This document shows positions 443 to 5,122 of a DNA stretch of 10,136 bases, piece by piece. The notes under the pieces were generated by a model. The model was not told the DNA's origin. It ran no database searches and saw only the letters and a list, made by a program, of their open reading frames with translations. Origin of the DNA: Heliobacteriaceae bacterium. GTDB taxonomy: Bacteria > Cyanobacteriota > Vampirovibrionia > Gastranaerophilales > Gastranaerophilaceae. A program made the translations under genes and the position numbers. Location of the stretch: the NCBI GenBank assembly GCA_031267015.1, contig JAIRZW010000057.1, forward strand, positions 1-10,136, written 5' to 3'. The first letter of the stretch is position 1, and the number at the start of each line of letters is the position of its first letter.

Positions 443-476
443 TTTTTTTATCCTTTATTATTATTGCTATGAGGTT

Positions 477-552
477 ACCCCTCACCCGAAACACTAAATT
501 CACCTACGGTTCATTAAGTGTTTCTCCCTCTCCCACCTGGGGCGAGGAGAAT
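477..552. repeat. R2 palindromic repeat, copy a (rpsC-rplP spacer)
   Basis: On the plus strand it begins CCCTCACCC and ends with CCCTCTCCC followed by a GGGGCGAGGAGA arm. Between them lie 12-nt arms (GAAACACTAAAT at 488-499 and ATTAAGTGTTTC at 513-524) that are complementary except at one position. The element begins three bases after the rpsC stop codon (556-558). The same outline with different arm sequences occurs at 3100-3171 and 5048-5122. Ends of this kind are known from dispersed palindromic repeats in many bacterial genomes; the assignment to one family is mine. Confidence 0.8.
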
Positions 553-555
553 TTA

Positions 556-1320
556 CTATTCTGTTTCTATTGCTTTGCGTCTTGGGCGTCTGTCGCCTCT
601 GTCGCCGCGGCCTGACGGTTTATCTGATGCCGAAGCTTTGCCGCCGCGAGCGGATTGACCGCCTGATTTTATGTTCTGGTCTGCTTTTTCTCCAGGCATT
701 AAGTTGCCTTTGAAAACCCACACCTTTACGCCGATTTTGCCCATTACGGTATCTGCTTCGGTGAAGCCGTAATCCACATCCGCACGCAATGTTTGAAGCG
801 GGATTCTGCCTTCTTTTGCCCATTCTGAACGCGCAATCTCCGCGCCCCCCAAACGGCCTGATACCATAACTTTTATACCTTGTGCGCCTGCGCGCATTGT
901 ACGCTGCATTGACTGTTTCATTGCGCGTCTGAATGCCACACGTTTTTCAAGCTGCTGGGCGATTGCTTCTGCCACTAATTGAGCGTCAGCGTCGATTCTT
1001 GCAACTTCAACAACATTGATAACAACTTGTTTGCCAATGTATTTTGAAACGTCTTTTTTCAAGTCGTCGATACCTTGTCCGCCGCGGCCTACCACGATAC
1101 CCGGTTTTGCAGTTGATACGGTAATCGTTATATTCTGCGCCTTTCTGGCGATGAAAATCTTTGAAACGCCTGCGGTGTAAAGTTTTTTCTTGATGTATTT
1201 TCTGATACGCGCGTCTTCTGCAACGAATTCGCCGTAATCTTTCACCTTAGCAAACCATGTGCTTACCCATGGCTGGATGATTCCTATTCTAAATCCGGTT
1301 GGATGTGTTTTCTGTCCCAT
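556..1320 (-). CDS. rpsC: 30S ribosomal protein S3 (uS3)
   Basis: The product is 254 residues. S3 sits at the mRNA entry channel of the small subunit and takes part in mRNA unwinding. [14 protein letters not shown] is the classic S3 start. A KH-type domain follows with the loop GRGGQG at 78-83. R131, R132 and K135 lie in FRRAMKQ, at the numbers of the E. coli S3 helicase residues. The C-terminal domain has [14 protein letters not shown] at about 154-167. Residues 215-254 form a low-complexity Gly/Ser/Arg/Asp tail that makes the protein longer than E. coli S3. No Shine-Dalgarno sequence is visible next to the ATG: the bases before it read GCTTGGTTAAAAAAG. Repeat R3 copy A fills the whole spacer from rplV, and a short conserved frame ends 5 nt before this ATG, so initiation may depend on coupling. 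Confidence 0.98.
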
Positions 1321-1457
1321 CTTTTTTAACCAAGCTTACGATTTTTCGCAAGCCGCCTTTCATTATTTATTTGTGTTACTTTCACTATTACCTTATTATC
1401 GGCTTTATTTTGTCAACGCACTCGGAGCTTCGCTCCTCGCACCTGTTTTGCTTTATT
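1321..1457 (-). repeat. R3 element, copy A (rplV-rpsC spacer)
   Basis: This is one of two near-identical intercistronic units. From 1350 to 1457 it aligns without gaps to 2118-2225 with five differences in 108 bases, and weaker similarity continues to the rpsC start. In the direction of transcription it starts on the rplV stop codon and contains hairpin GGAGC-GAA-GCTCC (1424-1436), a TTGACA hexamer, AAGG five bases before a GTG, an identical 36-base stretch, and a second hairpin (arms 1334-1340 and 1347-1353) just before rpsC. It fills the whole 135-nt spacer. I do not recognise it as a named element. Confidence 0.9.
1326..1385 (-). CDS. possible 19-residue leader peptide before rpsC
   Basis: A GTG-started frame of 19 codons lies inside R3 copy A. 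It is preceded by AAGG with a five-base gap, the best Shine-Dalgarno-like site between rplV and rpsC. It begins [12 protein letters not shown] and its TAA ends five bases before the rpsC ATG, a distance that allows re-initiation or coupling. The first 12 codons are identical in R3 copy B, where the frame is fused to rpsS. Identity holds at all bases, so it does not by itself prove selection on protein. I do not know a function; it may simply be a ribosome-loading site or chance. Confidence 0.3.
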
Positions 1458-1800
1458 AGCTGTTGATGTTGCTGACCTTTAGTGTCAAATGTGACGTACG
1501 TTTCAGTCTTGAATACATACGGCCTTGTGCTCTTGGTCTTGCGCGTTTGTAGGTTACGCTTTCGTCCGCGAAGATTTCGGAAATCTTCAGCGAATCCGCT
1601 TGCGCGCCGAATTTTTCCTGCGCGTTCGCAACAGCAGCCTTCAAGTTCTTTTCAACCACTCTTGCAGCGAAGTATGGCATAAAACGAAGCATGTCCTGTG
1701 CCTCGACAACAGACTTGCCCCGAACCTCGTTGATTACACGGCGAAGCTTTCTTGCTGTCATTTTAATATTTGATTGTTTTGCTTGTGCTTGTGATGTCAT
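1456..1800 (-). CDS. rplV: 50S ribosomal protein L22 (uL22)
   Basis: The product is 114 residues, normal for bacterial L22. L22 contacts all 23S rRNA domains, and its extended beta-hairpin lines the nascent-peptide tunnel together with L4. The family pattern is clear: KMTARKLRRVINEVRGKSVVEA near the N-terminus, AVANAQEKFG at 56-65 and the tunnel hairpin at about 84-100 (YKRARPRAQGRMYSRLKR). An AAGGA Shine-Dalgarno sequence lies in the 11-nt gap after rpsS, so rpsS and rplV are tightly coupled. Its TAA stop is also the first base block of repeat R3 copy A, which then separates it from rpsC. Confidence 0.98.
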   Translation of the reverse strand: MTSQAQAKQSNIKMTARKLRRVINEVRGKSVVEAQDMLRFMPYFAARVVEKNLKAAVANAQEKFGAQADSLKISEIFADESVTYKRARPRAQGRMYSRLKRTSHLTLKVSNINS

Positions 1801-1811
1801 TTTTTTATTCC

Positions 1812-2090
1812 TTATTTACGTTTCGCAGTTTTGTCTGCGGCGTGTCCTTTGTATAGTCTTGTAGGTGCAAATTCGCCCAGCTTATGTCCCACCATTTGCT
1901 CGGTTACGTAAACCGGTACATGCGTTTTGCCGTTGTGTACCGCTATCGTATGCCCCAGCATGAACGGTGCTATCATTGATGCTCTGGACCAAGTTTTTAC
2001 AACTTTTTTCTCAGAGTTTTCATTCATTTTTTCTATTTTCTTTTGCAGAGCTTCCTCTACGTAAGGTCCTTTTTTAAGTGAACGTGTCAT
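1812..2090 (-). CDS. rpsS: 30S ribosomal protein S19 (uS19)
   Basis: Taken from the ATG at 2090, the product is 92 residues, the usual S19 length, and starts [13 protein letters not shown], the classic family N-terminus. S19 is in the head of the small subunit near the A-site finger and binds 16S rRNA with S13. Other conserved blocks are [39 protein letters not shown] and the basic C-terminus. The frame stays open upstream to a GTG at 2153 with an AAGG site, adding 21 residues ([12 protein letters not shown]...) contributed by R3 copy B. I keep the ATG start because it matches the family, yet that ATG has no nearby Shine-Dalgarno sequence (GCTTGGGTAAAAGA precedes it), so the longer form cannot be excluded. 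Confidence 0.95.
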
Positions 2091-2225
2091 TCTTTTACCC
2101 AAGCTTACAATTTCCGTAAGCCGCCTTTCATTATTTATTTGTGTTACTTTCACTGTTGCCTTGTTATCGGCTTTATTTTGTCAACGCACTCGGAACTTCG
2201 TTCCTCGCACCTGTTTTGCTTTATT
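2091..2225 (-). repeat. R3 element, copy B (rplB-rpsS spacer)
   Basis: This is the second copy of the unit at 1321-1457, with 103 of 108 bases identical over 2118-2225. The hairpin is GGAAC-GAA-GTTCC on the coding strand (2192-2204): compared with copy A, one G-C pair has become A-T by changes on both sides. The second stem (2103-2109 with 2115-2121) also remains paired. It begins ten bases after the rplB stop and reaches the rpsS ATG. The conserved GTG frame runs in frame into rpsS. Confidence 0.9.
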
Positions 2226-2234
2226 TGTTGTCCA

Positions 2235-3065
2235 TTACTTTTTCTTTCTTCTTCTAACTATTAATTTATCAGAAGCCTTATTTACTTTACGTGTTTTGCG
2301 TCCGAGCGCCGGTTTGCCCCAAGGTGTTTTAGGGTGGCCGCCAGGGCCGGTTTTACCTTCGCCGCCGCCGTGAGGGTGGTCGCATGGGTTCATGGTTACA
2401 CCGCGAACTGTCGGCTTGATGCCAAGGTAACGTTTTCTGCCCGCTTTACCCCAAGAAAGGTTTTTGTATTCTGAGTTGCCAAGCGTGCCGATTGTTGCCA
2501 TGCATTCTTTTCTTACCATTCTCATCTCTGATGAAGGAAGCTTAATAGTTACGTAATTGCCTTCTTTTGCCATTACCTGAGCTGCATTTCCTGCCGCACG
2601 AACCATTTTGCCGCCGCGGCCCGGTGTCATTTCAATGTTATGAACCACTGTACCAAGCGGGATTAACTCAAGCGGAAGCGCATTGCCGTTTTGAATCGGC
2701 GCGTCAGGGCCGCTGACGATTACATCGCCCACGCTTAAGCCTTCCGGAGTCAAAATATATCTTTTTTCGCCGTCTGCATAGAATACAAGCGAAATTCTTA
2801 CGTTACGGTTCGGGTCGTACTCAATGGTTTTTACTGTTGCAGGTACGCCGAATTTTTCGCGTTTGAAGTCGATTATACGGTATGCGCGTTTCACTCCGCC
2901 GCCTTTGTGACGACAGGTGATTCTGCCGGTGTTGTTTCTGCCGGAATGCTTTTTAAGCGGTTTTAGCAAGGTCTTCTCAGGATTTGATGTTGTGATTTCC
3001 TGATAATCTGACTTTGTCATGCCTCTTTGGCCCGGTGATGTTGGATTTATCTTTCTGATTGCCAT
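2235..3065 (-). CDS. rplB: 50S ribosomal protein L2 (uL2)
   Basis: The product is 276 residues, typical for bacterial L2, one of the proteins essential for subunit association and peptidyl-transferase activity. [17 protein letters not shown] opens it. [20 protein letters not shown] (48-67) is in the RNA-binding OB domain, and [18 protein letters not shown] (146-163) begins the SH3-like domain. [13 protein letters not shown] (225-237) places H230 at the site of the conserved E. coli His229; the residue before the Asp is Cys rather than the common Val. The C-terminus is strongly basic. An AAAGGA site precedes the ATG. It follows rplW after a 103-nt gap holding R2 copy b, and precedes rpsS by 144 nt holding R3 copy B. 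Confidence 0.99.
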
Positions 3066-3099: not shown

Positions 3100-3171
3100 C
3101 CCTCACCCGCATTTCTTTGCCTCGCTTCGCTTTGCTAGAACTGCTCCCTCTCCCAGAGGTAGAGGGGATTA
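3100..3171. repeat. R2 palindromic repeat, copy b (rplW-rplB spacer)
   Basis: It has the same outline as copies a and c: CCCTCACCC, a variable cruciform, then CCCTCTCCC with a complementary AGAGGGG arm. The variable arms here are GCATTTCT (3109-3116) and AGAACTGC (3137-3144), complementary at seven of eight positions. The right edge coincides with the rplW stop codon (3169-3171): the shared border GAGGGGATTAT contains the reverse complement of the TAA, exactly as at rpsJ in copy c. Confidence 0.75.
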
Positions 3172-3465
3172 TGCCCCGGTCAACTCTTCAATCGGGTCGC
3201 CTTCGATGGTTACGATTGCTTTTTTGCCTGAGTCTGTTCTGCCGGATTTATACCCCATTCTCTTTTGGTGTGAAGGCATATAAACCGTTCTTACCTGTTT
3301 AACTTTTCTGCCCGGAAAAGCTAATTCTACTGCCTGCGCAATCTCAATTTTGGTGGCGTCTTTAACCACTTCAAATGTGTACTGCCCGATAGTAGTCGCC
3401 ATAACCGATTTTTCGGTTATAAGCGGTTTTTTGATTATGCTGTATAGTTTTTCTGTGTTGCTCAT
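3169..3465 (-). CDS. rplW: 50S ribosomal protein L23 (uL23)
   Basis: The product is 98 residues, normal for L23. L23 lies at the tunnel exit and docks trigger factor and the signal recognition particle. KPLITEKSVM (13-22) is the family signature, followed by YTFEVVKDATKIEIAQAVELAF and KVKQVRTVYMPSHQKRMGYKSGRT. The ATG lies one base after the rplD stop, with an AAAGG site inside the rplD end, so the pair is coupled. The stop codon is embedded in the border of R2 copy b, so insertion of the repeat may have set or altered the exact C-terminus (PIEELTGA). Confidence 0.97.
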   Translation of the reverse strand: MSNTEKLYSIIKKPLITEKSVMATTIGQYTFEVVKDATKIEIAQAVELAFPGRKVKQVRTVYMPSHQKRMGYKSGRTDSGKKAIVTIEGDPIEELTGA

Positions 3466-4123: not shown

Positions 4124-4200
4124 GACCGACTTCGTCGGGGATCCCGGATCAAGTCCGGGATGACGTATCCGTACGACGCACTGCGTCTACGGCTTCGTCA
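4124..4200. repeat. R1 palindromic cluster (rplC-rplD spacer)
   Basis: Three adjacent hairpins fill most of this gap: CCGAC-TTC-GTCGG (4126-4138), ATCCCGGA-TCAAG-TCCGGGAT (4141-4161, a perfect 8-bp stem) and a bulged CCGTA/GACGC with GCGTC/TACGG stem (4169-4192). The central one matches a dispersed palindrome (CATCCCGGACTTGATCCGGGAT) that I know from alphaproteobacteria, Rickettsia and other genomes. The cluster reaches the rplC stop codon (4198-4200), which may be contributed by the repeat. Confidence 0.75.
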
Positions 4201-4833: not shown

Positions 4834-5047
4834 TGTTTTTCCTTTCTTGGATTATTGGCGGTTCGGAAAAGCGTGGTTTTCCTCACCTGGACGGGCTGGG
4901 TTCGCTTGCGCTCACACGGCGCCCTAGCCAAAATCCGCTTTCTTGCGAGCGCTGCCTTTTGCCTTTACCTCTGTGAAGCTTTCAGCTTCACCGCAGTTCA
5001 CATTATCTGCATAATGCTATTAACTTATCAATCTTGTGAGGGCTGAA
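4834..5047. other. inverted-repeat-rich spacer between rpsJ and rplC
   Basis: No coding frame here looks real. The sequence holds several hairpins: GGAAAA/TTTTCC around 4865-4882, a GC-rich part at 4890-4930, a perfect GTGAAGCT-TTC-AGCTTCAC at 4973-4991, and GTGAGGG-CTGAA-CCCTCAC at 5036-5054, which reaches into R2 copy c. It has no tRNA features. Only the last bases next to rplC act as a leader, with the AAAGGA ribosome site. It reads as layered remnants of palindromic repeats rather than one regulatory RNA, but this is inference. Confidence 0.5.
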
Positions 5048-5122
5048 CCCTCACCCGAATTTCTAAACTCACTATGTTCGTTAAGAAATTCTTCCCTCTC
5101 CCACACGGGGCGAGGGGATTAT
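5048..5122. repeat. R2 palindromic repeat, copy c (rpsJ-rplC spacer)
   Basis: It is framed by CCCTCACCC and CCCTCTCCC, with arms GAATTTCTAAAC (5057-5068) and GTTAAGAAATTC (5080-5091) that pair at 11 of 12 positions. The single mismatch falls at the same ninth position as in copy a, although the arm sequences differ. The border GAGGGGATTAT coincides with the rpsJ stop codon, as in copy b with rplW. Confidence 0.8.

Follow-up and report, generated by a model that had tools for sequence, protein, structure and literature searches.

A dispersed structured RNA repeat of Gastranaerophilales as a candidate translation-initiation region of the genes behind it

The window, that is, the whole stretch of 10,136 nucleotides analysed here, is an entire contig of a draft genome (1.0 Mb, 206 contigs, 57% complete) and carries a ribosomal-protein operon in which the spacers before rpsS and rpsC are two copies of one element, referred to here as R3 (Table 1). 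Pair alignment of the two spacers gave 125 identities over 136 aligned bases with one internal gap, and a repeat search of the window returned the same pair as an ungapped match of 142 nt at 87% identity. The original prediction had described 103 identical bases of 108 and a similarity running from the upstream stop codon to the downstream ATG; the best 108-base window contains exactly 103 matches, and the homology begins inside the rplV stop codon in one spacer and 9 nt past the rplB stop codon in the other, reaching both ATGs. With the rpsS copy as a DNA query, the rpsC copy was matched at E 1.5e-51 together with three weaker copies elsewhere in the same genome, which excludes a chance likeness of the spacers. 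The twin spacers are both members of one structured RNA family, about 150 nt in length. Upstream of rpsS, the reading frame stays open across part of the repeat as far as a GTG at 2153 (1812-2153), and the S19 profile begins at the ATG at 2090.

Table 1. Genes, R3 copies and parts of the R3 unit in the window (R2, full-length covariance model built from 30 copies; SD, Shine-Dalgarno sequence)
Feature	Position	Strand	Basis and remarks
rplB (L2)	2235-3065	-	TIGR01171; upstream of the first R3 copy
R3 copy, rplB-rpsS spacer	about 2091-2226	-	R2, 103.7 bits at 2098-2215; pair alignment
rpsS (S19)	1812-2090, ATG 2090	-	TIGR01050; without AGGA-type SD upstream
rplV (L22)	1456-1800	-	TIGR01044; between both R3 copies; own AAGGA, without element
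R3 copy, rplV-rpsC spacer	about 1321-1457	-	R2, 111.1 bits at 1329-1447; pair alignment
rpsC (S3)	556-1320, ATG 1320	-	TIGR01009; without AGGA-type SD upstream
P1/P1b stem, rpsS copy (GGTGC-GA-GGAAC..GTTCC-GAGT-GCGTT)	2183-2211	-	Covariation in relatives; related stem in predicted fold
P1/P1b stem, rpsC copy	1415-1443	-	Covariation in relatives; related stem in predicted fold
AAAGCCG block, rpsS copy	2168-2174	-	GCC can pair with GGC of AAAGGC (P2)
AAAGCCG block, rpsC copy	1400-1406	-	Joint-change evidence for P2
AAAGG, rpsS copy, proposed displaced SD	2124-2128	-	Position and conservation across copies
AAAGG, rpsC copy, proposed displaced SD	1356-1360	-	Position and conservation across copies
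Hairpin, AAAGG to rpsS ATG	2102-2122	-	-8.3 kcal/mol, z -2.92; also in predicted fold
Hairpin, AAAGG to rpsC ATG	1333-1354	-	-11.6 kcal/mol, z -3.98; also in predicted fold

Between the twin copies lie 11 substitutions and a one-base indel, and among the differences is a paired A-T to G-C change in the apical stem (GGAAC/GTTCC versus GGAGC/GCTCC); this argues against a plain assembly duplicate of the spacer. They are 92% alike, and no other copy in the comparison exceeds 78% likeness to them. Model R2 found no R3 before rpsS or rpsC in any of the 29 relatives with a fetched rplV locus (for L040 and L041, without the rplB side, which could not be located). Up to E = 1, those loci gave just two matches, at 0.067 and 0.93, both of them elsewhere in L036; in the congener G001, the search for rplV itself gave no match. 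The twin pair is therefore recent here, the family being older, and the pair is best explained by a recent copying event, either duplication or gene conversion, involving two spacers of the same operon.

Read in the RNA sense, the unit consists of AACAGRTGCGAGGGATAAG, a variable loop, CCCGAGTGCRTT and AAAGCCGRTA, followed after about 44 nt by AAAAGGCGRY, a hairpin, CGTAAGCTRTGGTNAAAAA and the ATG. Invariant blocks are linked by variable loops throughout the R3 alignment, and the apical loop of the window copies is shortened relative to most relatives. Compensatory base changes, as expected of a cis-acting structured RNA, were found in the 5' stem. In an alignment of 63 sequences less than 80% alike, 18 double-change cells were counted compared to 4.4 in shuffles, none of 500 shuffles reaching 18; 88.6% of cells were paired, compared to 19.5 to 79.9% in the slid controls. 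This alignment drew on 88 dereplicated copies. A motif filter let 67 of them through, and 63 of those were aligned, the four omitted being short-loop copies, one of the window's copies among them. As the filter fixes TGCGA and GAGYGCR, part of the pairing in the outer helix is a consequence of the selection; the double changes fall outside the filter-fixed bases. All hits from the R2 search of the family through to the 63-row test were collected with models that already contained the 5' stem or its sequence. In a MAFFT alignment of 102 dereplicated copies, the highest-ranked covarying pair was the first P1b pair, with several other high-ranking column pairs outside helices. A 30-row alignment with weaker controls gave 2 double-change pairs versus 0.6 (reached by 42 of 500 shuffles) and 9 pair types versus 8.6 (reached by 269 of 500). 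RNAalifold reported no compensatory pair on the first alignments, and it was wider sampling and hand-tested pairs that provided the support for the 5' stem that RNAalifold had not.

The 3' half contains competing pairings. Six of 30 rows combine the loss of C85 (in AAAGCCG) with the change of G132 to A (AAAGGC to AAAAGC), and neither change is seen without the other, which supports the P2 pairing. The hairpin directly after AAAGG can be drawn in two registers, neither of them present in all rows (27-43 and 22-45 of 45, pair by pair, with 45 of 55 segments used), and RNAalifold found no compensatory pair in it. The predicted 5' stem is well supported, and the predicted 3' half is less certain.

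R3 extends well beyond this operon. A DNA search matched five places in the window's own genome, twins included, and 3 of 59 genomes when that genome was counted with the rest. A sequence model of the 3' part matched 26 of 146 genomes of the family at E up to 0.01, and R2 matched 57 of 383 genomes of the host family, in 9 of its 41 genera, with at least 227 matches over those 57 genomes (at most 8 counted per genome); a deeper R2 search of ten genomes yielded 5 to 27 copies apiece. In a draw of 241 genomes from the order, for which the share belonging to other families is not given, 42 genomes matched, all listed under the window's own family. An exact-pattern search of named species genomes returned 14 stretches, titled Candidatus Gastranaerophilales or uncultured bacterium; one query each against viral, plasmid, phage and E. 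coli collections was without match. Since one genome can contain numerous similar copies at unrelated loci, R3 is a small dispersed repeat in the broad sense.

For the spacers, two readings had been proposed: an element that is mobile or gene-converted, and a single cis-acting RNA that serves twice. The first is supported as to dispersal by copies at many unrelated loci, and the second gains support from the folded RNA and its mostly sense orientation before start codons. A search was expected to decide between the two, copies in many places pointing to a dispersed element and copies only before rpsC and rpsS to a regulatory RNA; copies were indeed found in many places, but this either/or did not separate the two readings. 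The original prediction also knew of no named family with this sequence, and Rfam yielded none in the window or in nine loci with relatives. Rfam 15 (4227 families) gave 0 matches over the whole window at the gathering score and, at a relaxed E-value, nothing across either R3 copy within 1300-2260, and the nine loci gave only sub-threshold matches, a few of them overlapping elements. Rfam whalefall-1 was matched below threshold (25.5 bits, cut-off 37, E 0.005) at 260-309 of L096, just upstream of an R3 copy preceding rpoC. A group II intron was considered for the GUGCG 5' block, and the Rfam intron models were without match. No earlier description of such repeats in this bacterial group was found in the open-access literature, a coverage that leaves most subscription journals outside.

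All proportions given here for arrays, spread and SD sequences refer to loci that were chosen from search hits rather than sampled at random and that include part of the matches, with copies from related species counted singly. On this basis, 183 of 185 located matches (two duplicates in L010, at the position of L080, were dropped) formed 138 arrays, of which 101 were single, 29 double and 8 triple. In 97 of the 138 arrays, a sense ATG within 60 nt past the 3' end starts a sense frame of 35 aa or longer, compared to 11 of 138 in the mirrored upstream test. Five arrays that this rule assigns to a gene (L258, L270, L206, L207 and L217) were moved to the gene-less class since an antisense frame follows, and the SD analyses therefore use 92 arrays and not 97. 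Gene-less arrays, identified through a GC-rich hairpin motif that follows the unit, make up 23 of 76 arrays in genus g7 (28 with the five reassigned). Among the arrays classed as "other" (15) or "edge" (3), some probably precede genes too short or cut off.

The genes behind the copies are diverse. Above curated cut-offs are S19, S3, L27, L21, L36, S11, S4, L11, L9, YebC, ATP synthase gamma, ClpX and RecA, and RNA polymerase beta', SecD and DnaK were found as partial proteins under full-length cut-offs. Pfam identified SecY, ExbD, a pyruvate:ferredoxin oxidoreductase domain, a PurH-like protein, an HD-domain protein and a flagellar rod protein; single-strand binding protein and TolQ/ExbB matched below cut-off only, a "MAIxGFDY" protein and two short proteins were without Pfam match, and the remaining names were assigned by eye. 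The same labels recur behind copies in different genera for rpmA, rplU, rpoC, exbB, exbD and korC.

An AGGA-type SD (AGGA, GGAG, GAGG or AAGG at the usual place) was present in 7 of 57 genes whose ATG is abutted by the element (model end within 15 nt), compared to 35 of 35 genes with the element further away and 87 of 87 element-free orthologs, these last being three ribosomal genes (rpsS, rplV and rpsC) from 29 relatives, some of other families. If the first ATG belonged to the element's own GATGAAAAA, the start was set at the following in-frame ATG. The longest anti-SD match averaged 3.6 nt for abutting copies, 5.9 nt for distant copies and 5.7 nt for element-free genes, with 3.75 nt for random 15-mers of like composition, and the 16S 3' end was canonical in both genomes where it was found complete. 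As the SD is mostly missing at abutting copies and present elsewhere, abutting elements stand in its place.

AAAGG is the candidate for a displaced SD. It occurs in 42 of the 57 abutting copies, and for 37 of the 42 the distance to the ATG is 32-39 nt. By genus, the abutting copies with AAAGG number 37 of 39 outside g7 and 5 of 18 within g7, where AAAGC replaces it in 13 of 18, so that a displaced SD cannot be the whole story in g7. AAAGG is also found in 17 of the 35 copies having a separate SD, and none of the 28 gene-less copies, which are all from g7, carries it; genus and use are therefore partly confounded in these counts. The hairpin following AAAGG had a mean z of -2.54 in the 42 abutting copies compared to -0.63 in the 17 with a separate SD, and for 6 of the 42 the fold did not surpass that of shuffles (z above -0.2). 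A GGT close to the start, present in 28 of the 57 abutting copies, could be a weak SD. Mimicry of 16S was considered and rejected: a copy preceding ssb shares GTAACAAGGTAACCG with the 16S 3' end, one base off, at a score of 25 compared to shuffled maxima of 28 and 26.

Taken on sequence evidence, we put it at about even odds (a probability of roughly 0.5) that R3 is a dispersed structured RNA of Gastranaerophilales, which are gut bacteria, serving as the translation-initiation region of the gene behind it. The element would presumably be co-transcribed as an intercistronic or leader RNA directly before start codons, with the conserved AAAGG, mostly 32-39 nt upstream of the ATG, acting as the SD and the hairpin after it shortening the gap, giving a hairpin-bridged SD. 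The upstream AAAGCC may pair with GGC in P2 and thereby close the initiation site, which might allow R3 to work as a switch. In phage T4 gene 38, the SD is separated from the AUG by a hairpin whose stem brings the two close, and R3 resembles this arrangement in its linearly distant SD and proposed bridging stem; cases of the gene 38 type are single genes, whereas R3 is a repeat family. A bolder version, advanced tentatively and with the odds somewhat against it, is that R3 is a putative mobile translation-initiation module at the start codons of essential genes, in which the SD would be replaced by a structure-bridged or SD-independent ribosome-recruiting fold and many unrelated genes would come under a single translational control point. 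Small repeats are commonly regarded as disturbing or decorating genes; R3 appears to have taken over as ribosome-binding site for ribosomal-protein, chaperone and secretion genes whose normal SD is missing. If this is true, it would be a natural and spreadable way to rewire the translation of many genes together and a test case for the distance between SD and start codon when RNA structure bridges the gap.

An unlikely alternative is that R3 is a selfish or neutral MITE-like repeat targeting A-rich sequence before starts, whose insertion displaced the SD, selection keeping only those insertions whose 3' end still allows initiation. Among 161 copies of at least 110 nt, the nearest non-tandem relative lay at another locus of the same genome for 63, at the same gene in a congener for 45, at the same gene in another genus for 1 and elsewhere for 52; the purH copy of G271, for example, is 0.91 alike to another G271 locus and 0.74 alike to the purH copies of congeners, which reach 0.94 among themselves. 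Copy sets vary among genomes of one genus, and at 29 congeneric rplU-rpmA loci, 18 had at least one match and 11 had none, with decayed forms between, so that full, decayed and absent states occur within one genus; no close pair with an unscarred empty site was seen among these 29. The 63 copies closest to another locus of their own genome, the three states at rplU-rpmA, tandem arrays, some of which begin with a 5'-truncated unit, and the gene-less g7 copies all count for a MITE-like repeat. Copies before rpoC follow genus (0.81-0.99 within and 0.74-0.76 between genera), the values between genera being hardly closer than those of copies before other genes (0.71-0.76), and common descent between genera is thus not demonstrated. 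Judged from such comparisons, R3 copies show turnover plus retention.

Against a selfish or neutral repeat, the covariation across genera indicates selection on the RNA; the gene labels shared between genera are likewise unfavourable, and no Y1 transposase or reverse transcriptase follows the distribution of the copies. Terminal inverted repeats, as found in MITEs (BOX, RUP, ERIC, Correia), were looked for at 12 nt or more within 150 nt, and seven loci showed none of that length. The Y1 transposase PF01797 was found in 5 of 10 genomes with copies and in 3 of 10 picked as without R2 match (one of the latter set, G015, has a weak R1 match), and was absent in G001, G068 and the incomplete G000; RVT_1 was absent in the copy-rich G001, G271, G068 and G240 and present in the window's own genome and G077. 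Both were accordingly rejected as mobilisers for want of a link with copy number, and a REP/BIME system with a RAYT transposase was rejected because PF01797 presence does not follow R3 copies. A promoter inside the element (TTGACA, in some copies) is not conserved in the alignment, and a scan of L115 for an own promoter of gene-less g7 copies gave 6 sites compared to 6.1 expected. The same scan gave 3 terminator-like sites compared to 0.7 expected, one directly after a unit.

Translational riboswitches and ribosomal-protein leaders are structured RNAs by a start codon, with conserved blocks, variable loops and possible SD occlusion, and R3 is like them in each of these respects. A ligand- or protein-sensing leader, riboswitch-like or acting in ribosomal-protein feedback, with tandem copies as tandem aptamers, would suit the invariant blocks, the adjacency to start codons, the tandem units in 37 of 138 arrays, the many ribosomal-protein and growth genes and the competing pairings of the 3' half. 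One riboswitch class normally serves one pathway, whereas R3 precedes unrelated genes and is dispersed within the genome. We consider a sensing leader quite improbable, as its targets (ribosomal proteins, rpoC, secY, secD, clpX, recA, the flagellar rod and purH-like genes) have no common pathway, copy sets differ within a genus and Rfam is without match. Still less probable is a role in processing or stability, in which the element would cut polycistronic mRNA, or protect it, at the junctions of cistrons; 64 of the 97 arrays with a gene behind lie between co-directional frames, as such an element would, but the SD dichotomy and the narrow range of ATG distances are left unexplained. Local gene conversion or assembly duplication alone, copying one spacer onto the other with no wider meaning, is hardly credible: it accounts for twins so much closer to each other than to other copies, but not for their substitutions with the paired change or the three further copies in the same genome, and it is refuted as the whole story by the family-wide matches and the many copies per genome.

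Among the described repeats closest to R3 are the BOX elements of Streptococcus pneumoniae, small dispersed modular repeats with RNA folds and slow turnover, which are transcribed as 5' or 3' operon extensions, sometimes inside leader regions, and are reported with terminal inverted repeats and target duplications in the passages available from that source (PMC3049150). R3 is likewise a small dispersed repeat with an RNA fold, but is mostly sense and start-proximal, and these BOX passages tie BOX to neither a fixed start-codon distance nor SD loss (PMC3049150). ERIC/IRU and Correia/NEMIS are described in part of a second source as repeats of 100-200 bp whose RNA folds act on adjacent genes via RNase E or RNase III processing, with orientation mattering for ERIC and with terminal inverted repeats of 7 and 24 bp (PMC2229807). 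R3 differs from these in lying at the ribosome-binding site; its inverted ends were checked at 12 nt or more only, and none were seen. The dispersal of R3 thus resembles that of BOX or ERIC, and its start-codon register is a feature unreported for them in the portions of the sources available (PMC3049150, PMC2229807).

Several other repeats and oddities were observed at these loci. A second repeat family (CCCTCACCCG ... CTCCCTCTCCCAC..GGGGCGAGGGG) occupies three more operon spacers of the window (476-556, 3101-3172 and 5041-5122), and similar sequence lies near R3 copies in G001. A REP-like palindrome, GGATCCCGGATCAAGTCCGGGATGAC, is located in the rplC-rplD spacer (4139-4164), and a palindrome like CCTGAAACAAGTTCAGGATGAC, whole or partial, is nested in the variable apical loop of copies in L115, L205, L215 and L257. 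Many g7 genomes without R3 before rplU (L273-L301) have a conserved leader there (GTATTAGTATGCGGTAACTCGTT ... ATTACGATACCAGAAAGG), possibly an L21 leader. Finally, a draft assembly of the congener G002 (L023, 366-1839) has the gene order rpsS-rplB-rplV-rpsC and not the usual rplB-rpsS-rplV-rpsC.
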